This document shows, piece after piece, positions 51,326 through 60,617 of a DNA stretch of 64,000 nucleotides (its first letter is position 1; each line of letters starts with the position of its first letter). The DNA is from Bradyrhizobium sp. KBS0727 (GTDB lineage: Bacteria; Pseudomonadota; Alphaproteobacteria; Rhizobiales; Xanthobacteraceae). The notes beneath the pieces are model-generated. The model did not search any database and was not told the origin of the DNA. It worked only from the letters and a program-made list of their open reading frames with translations. The position numbers were made by a program, and so were the translations under genes. The DNA is taken from positions 4,397,501 to 4,461,500 of the forward strand of contig NZ_CP042176.1 in the NCBI RefSeq assembly GCF_005937885.2. The letters run 5' to 3'.

Positions 51326-52255
51326 TCAGGCACGGGACGCGGCAAGGACCAAATCCGCGCCCTCCAGAATGTAACCCGCATAACGGAAGTCGCGAATCCG
51401 AACAATGCGAGAGCCGCGCCATTCCACCTTCATCAGGTAGCTGGGCTGCGCATCGTCAGCCCGCGCGAAAAACGCGATCACCTCGCCGCCGTGTCCGCCA
51501 TCAAGGTAGGCCGGGACGAGATGAAATTCCGGTATTTCCGCGTAAATTGTGAAGAACATACCCACGTCGGACCGCCCCTTGCGATCGGGATGCGTGGCCT
51601 GCGTCAGATGCACGTCTTCGGCCAACAGGGCGCGCAAGCCGTCCCAGTCGCGCTGATTGAACAGCGAGGAAAACTGCGCGGAGCCCGCTGATGCGGGCTT
51701 CCTCAGGCGCGGCTTACCCGGCGCAGCGTTGATTTCCGTCAGTCGGGTCCTGCCACGACTGAGTGCCGCCTTCACCGCATTAACGCTGAGATCGAGAAGT
51801 TCAGAAATTTCCTCAAGCGAATGACCCAGCACATCCTTCAGGATCACCGCGCTGCGCTGGACGATCGGCAGCTGGGTGAAGCGGGAGAGCGCGGTGTCAA
51901 TGGCCTCCCGACGCATAAGGGCTTCGGCCGGATCCACTGTCAGGTCGTCCGCGATCTGGACCGCTGCTTCGATCGGTTCGCTCCGTCTCACGGCTTGGCT
52001 CCTGAGGTGGTCGAGCGCGCGGTTATGAGCGATCCGAAACAGCCACGGCTTTAGTGGCGTCTCGGCGTCCAAGCCATCGGCAGCGACAAGAGCGCGGACA
52101 AGAACATCCTGCACGATGTCGTCGCCATCGAAGACCGAGCCTGCAAGCCGTGCGCAATAGCGGTGAAGCTCGGGGCGCACCTCGGCCATGATCGCCTGAA
52201 GCCGCGCCCGACCGTCACCGGGCGAGATAGACATACCGGACTTGTCTGCACTCAA
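51326..52255 (-). CDS. ECF sigma factor with SnoaL-like C-terminal domain
   Basis: A protein of about 309 residues. Sigma region 2 (DGDDIVQDVLVRALVAAD, PLKPWLFRIAHNRALDHLR) and region 4 (AVILKDVLGHSLEEISELLD with the helix-turn-helix after it) come first. A SnoaL/NTF2-like domain follows (FNQRDWDGLRALLAEDVHL to the C-terminus). Fused ECF factors of this kind control themselves through the C-terminal domain instead of a membrane anti-sigma. The start is uncertain: I take a TTG at 52255 with GGAG 6 nt upstream. It lies 20 nt after the SDR gene, probably in one operon. Confidence 0.85.
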   Translation of the reverse strand: MSADKSGMSISPGDGRARLQAIMAEVRPELHRYCARLAGSVFDGDDIVQDVLVRALVAADGLDAETPLKPWLFRIAHNRALDHLRSQAVRRSEPIEAAVQIADDLTVDPAEALMRREAIDTALSRFTQLPIVQRSAVILKDVLGHSLEEISELLDLSVNAVKAALSRGRTRLTEINAAPGKPRLRKPASAGSAQFSSLFNQRDWDGLRALLAEDVHLTQATHPDRKGRSDVGMFFTIYAEIPEFHLVPAYLDGGHGGEVIAFFARADDAQPSYLMKVEWRGSRIVRIRDFRYAGYILEGADLVLAASRA

Positions 52256-52275
52256 TTTGTGCTCCTGGGCGTACC

Positions 52276-53034
52276 TCAAACAGCGGCCCCATCAAGGATC
52301 GTGATGCCGGTGTCACCCTTGAGGCCGAAGGCGAAGTCGCCCTCATACAGGGGATTCGTCAACAGCGTGACGACGTGCTCGCCGAACTGGCGCGGCGGCA
52401 TCGGCGCGCCAAAGCGGGTGAAATACTGTTCAAGCGTGACGTTCAGCTTCGCGCTATACGCCGCCGCCGCCGCGTCCCCCACGCCCGTGCCGGCTATTAT
52501 CTGGCGCGGAACGATCGTCTGGAAGCGGATGCCGAGCTTTTTCTCGGCCGACACGCCGTTTGCGTAGTTCGCCATCAGCCACAGCATACGTTTCGCGCCC
52601 GCATAGCTGCCCGACAACGGCGAGCCCAAAACTGCCGCGCCGCTCGATCCGACCAAAACACGGCTTCCCGGAGGGAGTGGTGTCGCCAGTGCAGCCTGCA
52701 GCCAATGGAGGCCGGCCTTGACGTCAGTGTTCCAGGTTTCGCTGAACGTCTCCCATGACAGCTTGTCGAGAGAAGCCATCCTTGGCGGCGCTCCGGCGTT
52801 GAGAACCAGGATCGTCGGCCGCAGCTCGGCGAGGATCCGCCCCGCTTCCCCACGATCGGTGACGTCGGTGGCAATGGTTCCGACCCCAAGGCGTCTCGCG
52901 ACGCTTTCAAGATCGCCGGCGGTGCGCGCGACGACGGTTACCTTGGCACCGCGGTCGACAAGGGCTTCGACGATCCCAAGGCCCAATCCGCGGCTGCCAC
53001 CGGTCACGATAGCGGTTTGATTCTGCAAATCCAT
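52276..53034 (-). CDS. SDR family oxidoreductase
   Basis: A 252-residue short-chain dehydrogenase starting MDLQNQTAIV. TGGSRGLG lies at residues 11-18, NAGAP at 79-83, and the catalytic residues are Ser130/131, Tyr144 and Lys148 (YAGAK). An in-frame upstream extension is rejected because the next 40 codons look non-coding. It precedes the ECF sigma gene by 20 nt, so the sigma factor may be co-expressed with it. It is divergent from another SDR gene at 53332. Confidence 0.92.
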   Translation of the reverse strand: MDLQNQTAIVTGGSRGLGLGIVEALVDRGAKVTVVARTAGDLESVARRLGVGTIATDVTDRGEAGRILAELRPTILVLNAGAPPRMASLDKLSWETFSETWNTDVKAGLHWLQAALATPLPPGSRVLVGSSGAAVLGSPLSGSYAGAKRMLWLMANYANGVSAEKKLGIRFQTIVPRQIIAGTGVGDAAAAAYSAKLNVTLEQYFTRFGAPMPPRQFGEHVVTLLTNPLYEGDFAFGLKGDTGITILDGAAV

Positions 53035-53331
53035 GATCGCACTCCATGATCCATTCGTAGTTATGACGTTTGAGGGCTCTGAAAAGAGTCGCACCCGGAC
53101 CAAGAAAATCGCGCCCACTGACGGTGCTGCCGCGACGTTATTCCCCGCCTCTCGCACAGGCTCCGTCCAACGTGCCCACCCGGCAGCAAAGGTTCGCGCC
53201 GGGTGTGGCGCCTTACCCCCGATTTTTCACGCCCGGACGCGACTCCTTTCGCGAGCCTCGAACGTCCTGATTGCAGATGCCTCGTGGATCAGATCCGCCA
53301 AGCAAGGCAGGCCCATAACAAAGGAAGTCCT

Positions 53332-54114
53332 ATGAAACTCACTGACCGTACCGTCCTCATAACAGGCGGTTCCGCGGGCATCGGCCTCGCCTTCGCTCTC
53401 AAGTTCGTCGAACTCGGAAACGAAGTCATCGTGACTGGCCGGCGCCAAATTGTGCTCGACCAGGTGAAGGCAAAGCACCCAAAGCTCCATACGATCCGGA
53501 GTGATGTCGCGGACTCCGCGCAGATTGCCGCCCTCGCTGCGAGGGTGAAGTCGGAATTTCCCAGGCTCGACGTGCTGGTGAACAACGCCGGCATCAGCCG
53601 TTACAGGAACCTCAAGACCTCCACTGCCGACCTCTCCGAACTGATGGTCGAGATGGATATCAACGTCGGCGGTGTGCTTCGCATGACCTCGGCGTTCATC
53701 GACATCCTGACCGCCAATAGGGGTACCCTGATCAACATTTCCTCAGGCCTCGCCTTTGTGCCGCTGCCGTGCTTGCCCATCTACTGCGCGACCAAGGCTG
53801 CGATCCACTCCTACACCCAGTCACTCCGGTTCCAGTCTGAGGATTCCGGTGTGGAGATCATCGAGATCATGCCGCCCGCGGTGAAGACCGACATGACGGC
53901 AGGCCTTTCCGAAGGCGATGGCATCACCCAAATCACTACCGACGAGTTGGTGAAGCTCTCCTTTGCGTCCCTCAGGACAGGGGCTCTCGAAATCCATCCG
54001 GGCCAATCCAGGCAGCTCGCATTGATGCGCCGCGTCGCCCCCGATTTCATCAATCGCCAGCTTTGGAAAGCCTCCAGGAAACTCGTGCCCGTCGAGGTGG
54101 GGCAACGGGGATGA
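53332..54114 (+). CDS. SDR family oxidoreductase (DltE-like)
   Basis: A 260-residue short-chain dehydrogenase from the ATG at 53332, with AAGGAAG upstream. TGGSAGIG is at 11-18, NNAG at 84-87, the catalytic residues are Ser137/138, Tyr151 and Lys155 (YCATK). The C-terminal region has the segment LEIHPGQSRQLALMRRVAPD, seen in DltE-like short-chain dehydrogenases. It is divergent from the SDR-ECF unit. The substrate is unknown. Confidence 0.92.
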   Translation: MKLTDRTVLITGGSAGIGLAFALKFVELGNEVIVTGRRQIVLDQVKAKHPKLHTIRSDVADSAQIAALAARVKSEFPRLDVLVNNAGISRYRNLKTSTADLSELMVEMDINVGGVLRMTSAFIDILTANRGTLINISSGLAFVPLPCLPIYCATKAAIHSYTQSLRFQSEDSGVEIIEIMPPAVKTDMTAGLSEGDGITQITTDELVKLSFASLRTGALEIHPGQSRQLALMRRVAPDFINRQLWKASRKLVPVEVGQRG

Positions 54115-54381: not shown

Positions 54382-54879
54382 ATGACCATCCGCCCCATCG
54401 TCCGATACCCCGACCCGCGGCTCGCCCTCCCGGCGCAACCCGTGACCGCGTTCGACGGCGCGCTGCGCGAGCTCGCGGCCGACCTGATCGAGACCATGCA
54501 CGCCGCGCCCGGCATCGGCATCACTGCGCCGCATATCGGCATTTCGCTGCGGGTCGTGGTGCTCGACCTCGATCCCGTCAGCGGCGCGCAGACCTACGTC
54601 AATCCGGAAATGGTATGGGCCTCGCCGGAGATGATCACGCATCAGGAAGGCAGCGTCTCGATGCCCGGCGTCAACGACGACATCACGCGTCACGCCCGCG
54701 TCCGGATCAGCTATCAGGATGTCGACGGCAATTTTCACACCGAGGAGTCGCAAGGCCTGCGCGCGGTCTGCCATCAGCATGAGATCGATCAACTGAATGG
54801 GATGTTCTGGATCAGGCGCCTCTCCCGCTTGAAGCGCGAGCGGTTGATCAAGCGGTTTGAGAAGGCGTCGCGGGGGTGA
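54382..54879 (+). CDS. Peptide deformylase-like protein with altered active site
   Basis: A 165-residue protein of the deformylase fold (start RPIVRYPDPRLALPAQPV). All three catalytic motifs are changed. Motif I, usually GxGxAAxQ, reads GIGITAPH with His51 for Gln. Motif II, usually EGCLS, reads EGSVS with Ser91 for the metal-ligand Cys. Motif III, usually HExDH, reads HEIDQ with Gln137 for the second His. The metal site is therefore probably lost or different. It is not likely to be the housekeeping deformylase. It stands alone. Confidence 0.88.
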   Translation: MTIRPIVRYPDPRLALPAQPVTAFDGALRELAADLIETMHAAPGIGITAPHIGISLRVVVLDLDPVSGAQTYVNPEMVWASPEMITHQEGSVSMPGVNDDITRHARVRISYQDVDGNFHTEESQGLRAVCHQHEIDQLNGMFWIRRLSRLKRERLIKRFEKASRG

Positions 54880-54894: not shown

Positions 54895-55419
54895 TTAAGA
54901 CGCCGCCGCATCGCCCGCGAGGACTTGCCCCACCCTGGGCCGAGAACGCATCAACAGATAGAACGCGGTGACATGCGTGATCATCAGCAGCGGCACAAAG
55001 ATGATCGGGATTGCGTAGGCGCCGCCCAACTCCCCGGCCTTCGCAGGGAGGCCGACCTGGACCGCGTGGTAATAGTCGAGGATCAGGTCGACGAACCCCA
55101 CGAGATTGAAGGCGACGACGAACAGCCAGAACAGCGGACGGATCCTGACCGTGAGAAGCGCCAGCATGGCCAGCACGCCCGTTGCAAAATCCCAGGTGGC
55201 GGCGAACACGGCGAAGCTGGCCGGCAGATCGGGGCCGACCACGCCTGGAAGCAAGAAGACGAGTCCGAAAAAGCGGAAGCTGTGCAGGGTCGCGATCGCA
55301 CGCTGTGCTTCGAAATGGTCCATCGCTTTCAGCCGGGGCCAGACGTATGCGCCGAAGCAAAGCAGCCACGCGACATATCCGAAGATGAGATGGGTTTGGA
55401 ACAGGATTTCCGGGGACAT
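54895..55419 (-). CDS. Polytopic membrane protein, unknown function
   Basis: A 174-residue product starting MSPEILFQTHLIFGYVAWLL, with about five hydrophobic segments (including RIRPLFWLFVVAFNLVGFV and AIPIIFVPLLMITHVTAFYL). The longer upstream frame is the methyltransferase gene in another phase. It starts 8 nt after that gene's stop, so the two are a tight operon. No family was recognised with certainty. Confidence 0.78.
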   Translation of the reverse strand: MSPEILFQTHLIFGYVAWLLCFGAYVWPRLKAMDHFEAQRAIATLHSFRFFGLVFLLPGVVGPDLPASFAVFAATWDFATGVLAMLALLTVRIRPLFWLFVVAFNLVGFVDLILDYYHAVQVGLPAKAGELGGAYAIPIIFVPLLMITHVTAFYLLMRSRPRVGQVLAGDAAAS

Positions 55420-55427
55420 GTGAGCTC

Positions 55428-56261
55428 CTATCGTGGGTTCGTTGACGCGGCCTCGAATACCGCGGTCAGGATGCCAATCCGGCCTTCCATAAGACTTCGC
55501 CCCAGGTTGGCGGAAAGCTGTGCGAAGTCCGGCCCCATCACCACGCCGAGATTTGGCGCAGGCGGCGGCCCCGATGCGCGCAGCTGGACGATCCAGGCCT
55601 TGGCTGCCTCCGAGTCGTCCTGCCATGCCAGCGCGCGGAAACCGGCCGGCTCGATTGCCGCGCGTGTCGCGGCGGCGGTCAGAAGAAAGCTCGTTGCGGG
55701 CGTCCGCGCCCACGGCACGGGATAATGCGGCTCAGTGCCGTTCGACACGACGTCATAAGTCGCGAACCTGCCACCTGTCTTCAGCACGCGGCGGATCTCG
55801 CGGTAGAGCCGCGCCCGGTCGAAGATGTTCATCGCCACATGCTGTAGCAACACGGCGTCAAAGCGGCCGTCGTCAAATGGAAGCTCCAGCGCGCTGGCGG
55901 TCTGGAACGACACCTCCCCGCTCAGGCCCGCGCGCGCGGTCAGATAGCGTGCGGCATCCACGAATGGCTCGCTGAGATCGACGCCCGTTACCCGGCAGCC
56001 ATAGGTCGCCGCCAGAAAGCGCGCCGGTCCGCCGACGCCCGAGCCGACATCAAGCACCGACATGTCGACGGTGATCCCGGCCAACCTGGCAAGCTCGGTG
56101 GTTGCTGCGAGCCCACGGGTGTGAAACTGGTCGAGCGCGCCCAGTTGCTCAGGCGTGAGCCGCTGGTCCTCCGGCCCGAGGGCCATGAGCGCCGTTTTCA
56201 ACCGTTCGGTCAGGCCGGTCGCGCGATAGTGGTCGCGCACGTCATCAAGGACATCGGTCAT
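55428..56261 (-). CDS. SAM-dependent methyltransferase
   Basis: A 277-residue class I methyltransferase. Motif I (VLDVGSGVGGPARFLA) is at residues 69-84, an acidic residue (VDLSEPFVDAARYL) ends strand 2, and FDAVLLQHVAMNI matches motif IV. It resembles the UbiE/MenG or sterol/phytol-like small-molecule group. I choose the ATG at 56261, with AAGGAA 8 nt upstream, over an earlier start. It is divergent from the LysR gene, which may control it. The substrate is unknown. Confidence 0.9.
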   Translation of the reverse strand: MTDVLDDVRDHYRATGLTERLKTALMALGPEDQRLTPEQLGALDQFHTRGLAATTELARLAGITVDMSVLDVGSGVGGPARFLAATYGCRVTGVDLSEPFVDAARYLTARAGLSGEVSFQTASALELPFDDGRFDAVLLQHVAMNIFDRARLYREIRRVLKTGGRFATYDVVSNGTEPHYPVPWARTPATSFLLTAAATRAAIEPAGFRALAWQDDSEAAKAWIVQLRASGPPPAPNLGVVMGPDFAQLSANLGRSLMEGRIGILTAVFEAASTNPR

Positions 56262-59077: not shown

Positions 59078-59574
59078 TCAGCGGAGGAAACGCCGGCTGA
59101 CGCGCGGCCCACTCGACCACTCATACAAGGCATGTAAGTCCGCTTTGCGCCAAAATCCGCCTTTGAGAATTCCGGTACAGTTAATCAGAACACGAAGCGG
59201 CTCGTTTCGCTATTCTAGGTTGGGCGCGAGCACATTTTCGATCCATTTCATGAATGCGCGGACTCGGCGCGACAGATTGCTCCGATGTGCTACGACGAGG
59301 GACACGGCGAGCGCCCGGCGACGAAAATCGGGGATGATCTCCACAAGCGCTCCACTCTCTAGGTATCGGCCAATCCCCAAGAGTGGCGCCTGAATCAGGC
59401 CAAGGCCGGCGAGGGCAGCGGCTTCGTAGGTCTGCGCGCTGTTGACGTGTAGCGCACCCGGCAACTGCAGCGTCGCGTAGCTGTCGCCGTCCGGATATTC
59501 CCATCCGTAGGGTCTTGCGCCCAGTATCGTCGAAAAATGAATTGTCCGATGTTCCTGACGCTGGAGATCTTCTA

Positions 59575-60617
59575 GAGTGTTTCCGATTTTTTCTGAATCG
59601 GGGATTCCCAAATCAGGTGGGCTCTGATTCAATTTTCCTGCTGGGACGGAGGCCAGCAAGGATGGCGCGAGCATACTCACTGGATCTGCGTGAGCGTGTT
59701 GTCGGGTTGGTTGCGAGTGGTGAGACGTGCCGAGCGGTGGCAGAACTGTATGACGTCAGCGTTGCGAGCGTCGTGAAGTGGTCGCAGCGGGCGCGCGCGA
59801 CGGGCAGTGCGGCGGCCAAGCCGATGGGCGGCAGGCGGCCTTACCTGCTGGAAGGCGAGCGCGACTGGCTGCTGGCTCGGCTGGCCGAGAAACCTGATCT
59901 GACCTTGCACGCGCTGCTGGCAGAACTTGGCGAACGCGGTGTCGCGGTGTCCTGCGACACGCTCTGGCGGTTCCTCAAGCGCCAGGGCATCAGCTTCAAA
60001 AAAAACCGTGTTCGCGGCTGAGCAGGATCGTCCTGATATCGCGCGCCGCCGCGCCTGGTGGAGACGGCACCAATCGAAAATCGAACCTACCCGTCTCGTC
60101 TTCATTGATGAGACCTGGGCCAAGACCAACATGACCCGTACCCATGGTTGGTGGCGACGGGGCATCCCGCTCAAGGCTCAGGTCCCGCACGGCCATTGGC
60201 GGACGATGACCTTCCTCGCAGCACTCCGGCACGACCGCATCGCTGCGCCCTGCGTCATCGACGGGCCGATCAACGGCGAGAGCTTCCGTGCCTATGTCGA
60301 GCAGTTGCTGGTGCCAACGCTCCAACCTGGCGACATTGTCGTCATGGACAATCTCGGCTCCCACAAGGGTCCCGCTATCCGAAGAGCTATCCGAGCTGCC
60401 GGCGCACGGCTCGTCTTCCTTCCGCCCTATAGCCCGGACCTCAATCCGATCGAGCAGGTCTTCGCAAAGCTCAAAACCCTGCTCCGCAAAGCCGAAGAGC
60501 GCACCATCGAAGGCGTGTGGCGCCAAATTGGCAGCCTTCTCCAACACTTCACACCGCAAGAATGCGCAAACTATCTGCGCAACGCTGGATATGCTTCCGT
60601 CTAAATCGGAAAGACTC
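59575..60617 (+). mobile_element. IS630-family insertion sequence, complete
   Basis: 1043 bp with terminal inverted repeats GAGTGTTTCCGATTT (59575-59589) and, inverted, GAGTCTTTCCGATTT (60617-60603), 14 of 15 identical. It is flanked by TA on both sides (59573-59574 and 60618-60619), the target duplication of IS630/Tc1 elements. It has one transposase split across two frames. It is inserted in a LysR gene. Confidence 0.95.
59662..60604 (+). CDS. IS630 family transposase, frameshifted reading
   Basis: The N-terminal frame (59662-60021) carries the helix-turn-helix (YSLDLRERVVGLVASGETCR, YDVSVASVVKWSQRAR). The catalytic frame continues to 60604 with the DDE triad: D in FIDETW, D in VVMDNLGSHK, and E in PYSPDLNPIEQVF. 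The frames meet at an A8 run (59998-60005): one A fewer would join them as KKTVFAAEQDRPD. So the full protein (about 313 aa) needs +1 ribosomal or transcriptional slippage. Slippage at A-runs is known in IS elements, but a plain mutation is also possible. Confidence 0.88.

Follow-up and report, generated by a model that had tools for sequence, protein, structure and literature searches.

The window, a stretch of 64,000 nucleotides from Bradyrhizobium sp. KBS0727, carries at positions 54382..54879 of the forward strand a gene for a protein of 165 amino acids that has the fold of peptide deformylase (PDF) and that we name DefL, a name coined here. The Pfam profile PF01327 (Pep_deformylase) matches its residues 3-152 over profile positions 1-155 of 156 with 146.1 bits (E 8e-43, cut-off 22.8), and the NCBIfam model NF009484 matches residues 1-164 over the full model with 278.9 bits against a cut-off of 190. 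In a canonical PDF the three conserved motifs build one pocket, in which a cysteine and two histidines hold the metal, a glutamate activates the water and a glutamine helps to hold the oxyanion. Read directly from the sequence, DefL departs from the catalytic peptide deformylase (EC 3.5.1.88) in each of these motifs. Motif I, GIGITAPH (54511..54534, forward strand), has His51 at the position of the canonical Gln. Motif II, EGSVS (54646..54660, forward strand), has Ser91 at the position of the Cys metal ligand and Val92 at that of the following Leu. Motif III, QHEIDQLNG (54775..54801, forward strand), reads HExxQ in place of HExxH, with Gln137 at the position of the second His metal ligand, while His133 and Glu134 are retained. 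The alignment rows and the predicted structure add a Phe142-Trp143 pair and a basic C-terminal helix (54805..54879, forward strand).

Among solved structures the best match by sequence is the P. aeruginosa PDF 1n5n (chain 1n5n_A, E 8e-39), and its alignment places H51 at the motif I Gln, S91 at the Cys and Q137 at the second His, with H133 and E134 kept. Both the translation and this alignment thus confirm the three changes, Gln to His, Cys to Ser and His to Gln, that an earlier note on this DNA had reported from its letters. The claim of the same note that the fold survives the loss of two metal ligands is likewise borne out by the alignment, the predicted structure and the structure matches. 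An AlphaFold model of DefL reaches a pLDDT of 95.1 and a pTM of 0.89, compared with 95.5 and 0.90 for the canonical protein of the same genome. The 50 structure matches listed are all PDFs, with Z from 27.0 to 24.7, and the first of them is 6ck7 (Z 27.0, 1.2 A over 164 residues). Thus, both the PF01327 profile and the fold place DefL in the PDF family. The model also retains the C-terminal helix as residues 149-164, and the mean charge of the last 22 residues is +7.2 in DefL proteins versus +5.9 in 14 canonical proteins of the order. In the E. coli enzyme the C-terminal helix binds the ribosome, according to the available part of PMC12690207.

The genome of the window (7.31 Mb, a single contig) matches PF01327 at two places. 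The second, at G000:C1:6956715-6957182 on the reverse strand, reads Q-C-H-E-H at the five site positions and adjoins genes with formyltransferase and pseudouridine synthase domains, the arrangement def-fmt-truA. The canonical def gene that the earlier note had suggested looking for elsewhere in the genome is therefore present, with its Gln, Cys, His, Glu and His intact. In S. meliloti CP090106 the canonical def also lies in def-fmt-truA, and DefL is found about 1.1 Mb away beside mgtE, so that a tandem arrangement of DefL next to def was rejected.

Another finding from this analysis is that relatives of the protein fall into two discrete states. Among 161 match rows, 82 read H-S-H-E-Q at the five site positions, 74 read Q-C-H-E-H and 5 are incomplete because of contig ends or frameshifts, with genes that were fetched twice counted twice. 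No complete row among the 161 shows a mixed or intermediate site. These rows derive from a contig scan in which 80 of 136 relatives were kept and from a protein search of 297 genomes of the order, 288 of which gave matches. Since the loci of this count were chosen by their likeness to the window protein, two further tests were made. In one of them 385 class genomes and 398 phylum genomes were searched with a DNA pattern covering motif III only, CARCAYGARNTNGANCARYTN, and 54 loci were fetched. Twenty-eight of the 54 encode a deformylase, all 28 of which also carry H51 and S91, and the other 26 are unrelated. The other test applied PF01327 to 25 genomes of the order in which two or more matches had been seen earlier, with the query set aside. 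This search found 54 places, among which five DefL copies already known and a short fragment were skipped and two entries (L254 and L273) are the same gene; it gave 40 Q-C-H-E-H rows, 6 H-S-H-E-Q rows and 3 incomplete rows. The six H-S-H-E-Q rows belong to a deep branch (family f6) and show AYGLAAVH or a similar motif I, EGSVS, and HEIDQ or HEIEQ. His133 and Glu134 are present in every complete row, and in every complete H-S-H-E-Q row the cysteine has been replaced by serine, never by alanine or any other residue. The same residues in 66 of 66 aligned relatives and in all 28 genes picked by motif III alone rule out a sequencing error or chance. Two side observations come from the same searches. 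Four divergent accessory PDFs (L260, L263, L264 and L269) have a motif II of DDCMS or DDCFS, with Gln, Cys and both His intact. In addition, a partial third copy with EASVS and QHEIDQ (L272; G276 C18, about 63191) lies near a contig end.

Phylogenetic trees gather the H-S-H-E-Q proteins into one clade even when the altered columns are left out. For the alignment, 66 of 85 DefL loci were used, with duplicate, cut, frameshifted and some close ones omitted, together with 40 of the 74 Q-C-H-E-H rows. A 106-row tree built without columns 51, 91 and 137 puts the 66 DefL rows on one side of a branch with support of 99, and in a more careful tree of 104 rows without columns 51, 91, 92, 137, 142 and 143 the DefL branch has support of 100/98. 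With the same six columns omitted and the f6 rows plus 20 canonical or accessory copies added (130 rows), all 72 H-S-H-E-Q rows form one clade at 100/99; two long Bacillota rows were left out of the 104- and 130-row trees, and 20 of the 40 further Q-C-H-E-H rows were used in the latter. The copy of the window groups with those of Bradyrhizobium. The triple change appears best read as having a single origin. What the earlier note had described as a protein that lost two metal ligands and kept its fold stands, but the protein is not a single oddity: it is a member of a family with one invariant clade. The note had named a different metal, a non-catalytic binder and a changed substrate as options and had preferred none of them.

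Within this clade the site is strictly kept. The 66 DefL rows include relatives as distant as 45% identity to the window protein and share 25 invariant columns out of 165, including H51, S91, H133, E134 and Q137, and the probability that all five named sites would be invariant by chance is 5.5e-5. H51, S91, Q137, F142 and W143 are fixed in these rows and occur in none of the 40 canonical rows, and V92 occurs in 63 of the 66; each of the 40 canonical rows has the canonical Q, C, L and second H. The 66 rows are also invariant at R152 and R154, and the f6 rows have F in place of W143. In 190 pairs from 20 close relatives the median dN/dS is 0.18 and the maximum 0.36, with purifying selection in every pair. 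In the three genomes compared for both genes, the ratio is 0.13 to 0.22 for DefL and 0.10 to 0.14 for canonical def. By these substitution rates the DefL gene is under selection and slightly less constrained than def.

DefL is present in at least 58 of the 297 genomes of the order, 52 of them from the loci read earlier and six from the PF01327 test. Every one of the 58 has at least one further PDF match, and DefL is never the sole PDF there; the motifs of the partner were read in 17 of the 58 genomes and are Q-C-H-E-H in all 17. Because another PDF stands alongside in 58 of 58 genomes, we see no evidence of an essential role for DefL. All nine genomes of the window's genus in the order draw carry it. 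Carriers include Bradyrhizobium, Tardiphaga, Rhodopseudomonas, Sinorhizobium, Rhizobium and Acetobacter, and DefL is also found on plasmids of Aminobacter, Mesorhizobium and Acuticoccus, indicating that it can move. Frameshifted copies in a Bradyrhizobium genome (L021) and on a Mesorhizobium plasmid (L158) suggest that some hosts manage without it. The pattern scan of the class matched 26 of 385 genomes, 11 of them with DefL. Outside Alphaproteobacteria no DefL was found with the pattern, since in the 398 phylum genomes the matches outside the class came from 13 genomes, and none of those places encodes a deformylase. The pattern counts are lower bounds, because the pattern misses the six f6 copies, which have V or M after Gln137. 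The best match in phages shows 41.6% identity.

The neighbourhood of DefL differs from host to host. In the window its neighbours are two short-chain dehydrogenases, an ECF sigma factor, a methyltransferase and a LysR regulator. The nearest gene upstream, a short-chain dehydrogenase on the forward strand (53203..54114, PF00106, 156 bits), and the downstream open reading frame on the reverse strand (54895..55713, no Pfam match) are both thought to lie outside the system. Sinorhizobium has mgtE, SpoVR and PrkA next to DefL, Aminobacter an LLM oxidoreductase and a gamma-glutamyltransferase, Mesorhizobium MucR, and Acuticoccus an aldo/keto reductase and an ABC transporter. A conserved operon was rejected, as the annotated plasmid neighbourhoods differ between genera. 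By comparison of open reading frames, neighbours other than DefL and overlapping frames are shared by at most 10 of 83 loci, a result that is weak either way because many frames in this GC-rich DNA are spurious. No motif common to the 160 bases 5' of the gene was seen by eye in 20 close relatives. Elsewhere in the window, the ECF sigma factor (51326-52279, reverse strand) bears a C-terminal SnoaL-like domain. An IS630-type transposase occupies 59515-60604 on the forward strand in two overlapping frames, with a helix-turn-helix part at 59515-60021 and a DDE part at 59927-60604. At 59210-59680 (reverse strand) there is the C-terminal part alone of a LysR substrate-binding domain (profile positions 126-207), probably the remainder of a regulator cut by the IS630-type insertion, since its start runs into that element.

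Taken together, sequence comparisons suggest that DefL is probably an accessory PDF paralogue of Alphaproteobacteria, a specialised protein with a different chemistry rather than a broken copy. The reading that we find likeliest, though we hold it at somewhat less than even confidence, is that DefL may be a hydrolase with a metal site rebuilt around two histidines, His133 and His51, and with Glu134 as its base, as before. Since neither its fold nor its basic C-terminal helix has been lost, DefL would probably meet nascent or short peptides whose N-termini are formylated or otherwise blocked. The three changes, linked to one another, would have rebuilt the active site, and the metal would be held by His133, by the newly gained His51 and by an oxygen from Glu134, Ser91 or Gln137, while Glu134 would still activate water for hydrolysis. 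The site has as many His and Gln side chains as that of a canonical PDF, with their places exchanged; the simplest reading of this invariant swap is that the new His assumes the role that the old one gave up. As the structural model contains no metal, His51 as a ligand is a proposal from sequence. A site free of thiolate should resist oxidation and nitrosylation, and it should favour a different metal or work more slowly. In the Salmonella PDF it is Cys90, described together with HExxH in the available part of PMC7683392, that NO modifies. The joint appearance of three changes in one clade, followed by their invariance together with that of the glutamate and the first histidine, favours a working rebuilt site. 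Two observations on other PDFs weaken the proposal, namely that replacing Cys90 by Ser alone leaves the Salmonella PDF inactive (PMC7683392) and that the divergent PDFs of type 3 in many cases show little or no activity (PMC12690207, PMC5591237). It is also weakened because no conserved operon or upstream element points to a pathway, because another PDF accompanies DefL in all 58 genomes and because frameshifted copies occur.

The same Salmonella result lends weight to the main rival reading, in which DefL is a pseudoenzyme without metal or catalysis that would either read formyl-Met N-termini or compete with the canonical PDF on the ribosome. The loss of two of three metal ligands, the retention of the fold and the basic helix, and the presence of a canonical PDF in the same cell would all suit a protein that merely binds. 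Binding alone, however, would hardly require that all five site positions, Glu134 among them, stay invariant down to 45% identity, or that the replacements always be the same three residues. The invariance of the site residues makes a loosely constrained binder less likely, and we regard the pseudoenzyme reading as less likely than the rebuilt site, though as a serious rival to it. That the cysteine targeted by NO is missing from DefL can also be taken to mean that DefL is an ordinary stress deformylase, with the same substrate and metal and weaker activity, which would be able to work once oxidation or nitrosylation has hit the main enzyme's cysteine, or in the presence of natural PDF inhibitors. 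The available part of PMC12690207 notes that accessory PDFs are widespread and that inhibitors affect some of them less strongly. Nevertheless, the loss of a His ligand from motif III takes DefL further than the type 3 PDFs, for which changes in motifs I and II are described there, and neither the annotated regions nor the upstream sequences of 20 relatives show a stress-linked neighbour or a common element. This reading is improbable.

The strict replacement of cysteine by serine in complete rows allows a further reading, namely that DefL could be a metal-free hydrolase with Ser91 as nucleophile, His133 or His51 as base aided by Glu134, and the oxyanion held at the backbone of Val92 and a neighbouring side chain. 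Ser91, His51, His133 and Glu134 are indeed invariant and lie in the motifs that form one pocket in PDFs, whose fold DefL matches. The change from Cys to Ser is, on the other hand, also the simplest isosteric one, and we know of no serine hydrolase with a PDF fold, so that we consider this mechanism quite improbable. If true, it would mean that one fold had swapped its entire catalytic apparatus, with no intermediates among the sampled relatives, in a protein that the annotation of many alphaproteobacteria treats as an ordinary deformylase. Finally, the two frameshifted copies could be taken as signs of a decaying duplicate without function. Against this stand the dN/dS values, nowhere above 0.36 and purifying in all 190 pairs, the retention of DefL in nine of nine drawn genomes of the genus and the 25 invariant columns in 66 rows, which leave decay only a very slight probability.

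A family of this kind bears on how deformylases are counted. The DefL family has been catalogued by NCBI under the name of the enzyme and, as far as we have seen, it apparently has not been described. No description of an H-S-H-E-Q deformylase clade was found in the literature, a weak negative since most subscription journals lay outside the search. The NCBIfam model NF009484 (PRK12846.1-5, 'peptide deformylase', of equivalog type) covers the family, with six further H-S-H-E-Q proteins scoring 219.8 to 251.8 bits, and its name claims an enzyme although DefL is without two of the three metal ligands. A canonical PDF (L134) also passes this model with 195.6 bits against the cut-off of 190, so that the model fails to separate the two states. 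In the four records where DefL is annotated, its product name is peptide deformylase; some rhizobial proteins presumably bear the UniProt name 'peptide deformylase-like'. More than one PDF is found in 48% of bacterial species across 5,042 reference genomes, and updated motifs are kept by 80% of PDFs, according to PMC12690207, in the available part of which Bradyrhizobium is not named. PF01327 proteins are taken for deformylases both in annotation and in recent counts, and PDF serves as a drug target. Because DefL is without two of the three ligands, any tally of accessory deformylases takes in proteins whose function may be a different one.

Paralogues of zinc enzymes that lack ligands and are regulated by Zur, such as those of the PyrC, HemB and DksA types, resemble DefL in being kept beside a normal gene, as described in the available part of PMC2770081, where the word deformylase has 0 occurrences. 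In contrast to these paralogues, DefL has no zinc-uptake, Zur or COG0523 neighbour in the annotated regions, and the suggestion that it is a zinc-sparing paralogue is disfavoured for this reason. The type 3 PDFs, found in Archaea, in trypanosomatid mitochondria and as accessory copies in some Gram-positive bacteria, by the available parts of PMC12690207 and PMC5591237, are like DefL divergent and carry motif substitutions, and they are mostly weakly active or inactive (PMC5591237). Unlike these proteins, known here by the description of their motifs I and II in the available part of PMC12690207, DefL has also lost the second His of motif III. The closest comparison is with the canonical type 1B PDF (def; PF01327, TIGR00079), with which DefL shares its fold, length, motif positions, first His and Glu and basic C-terminal helix, and from which it differs in that the Gln, the Cys and the second His are replaced and that Val92, Phe142 and Trp143 are special to its clade. 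The two-state pattern therefore offers a compact case of site exchange in a metalloenzyme, involving three residues and one clade, with the parent enzyme in the same cell.
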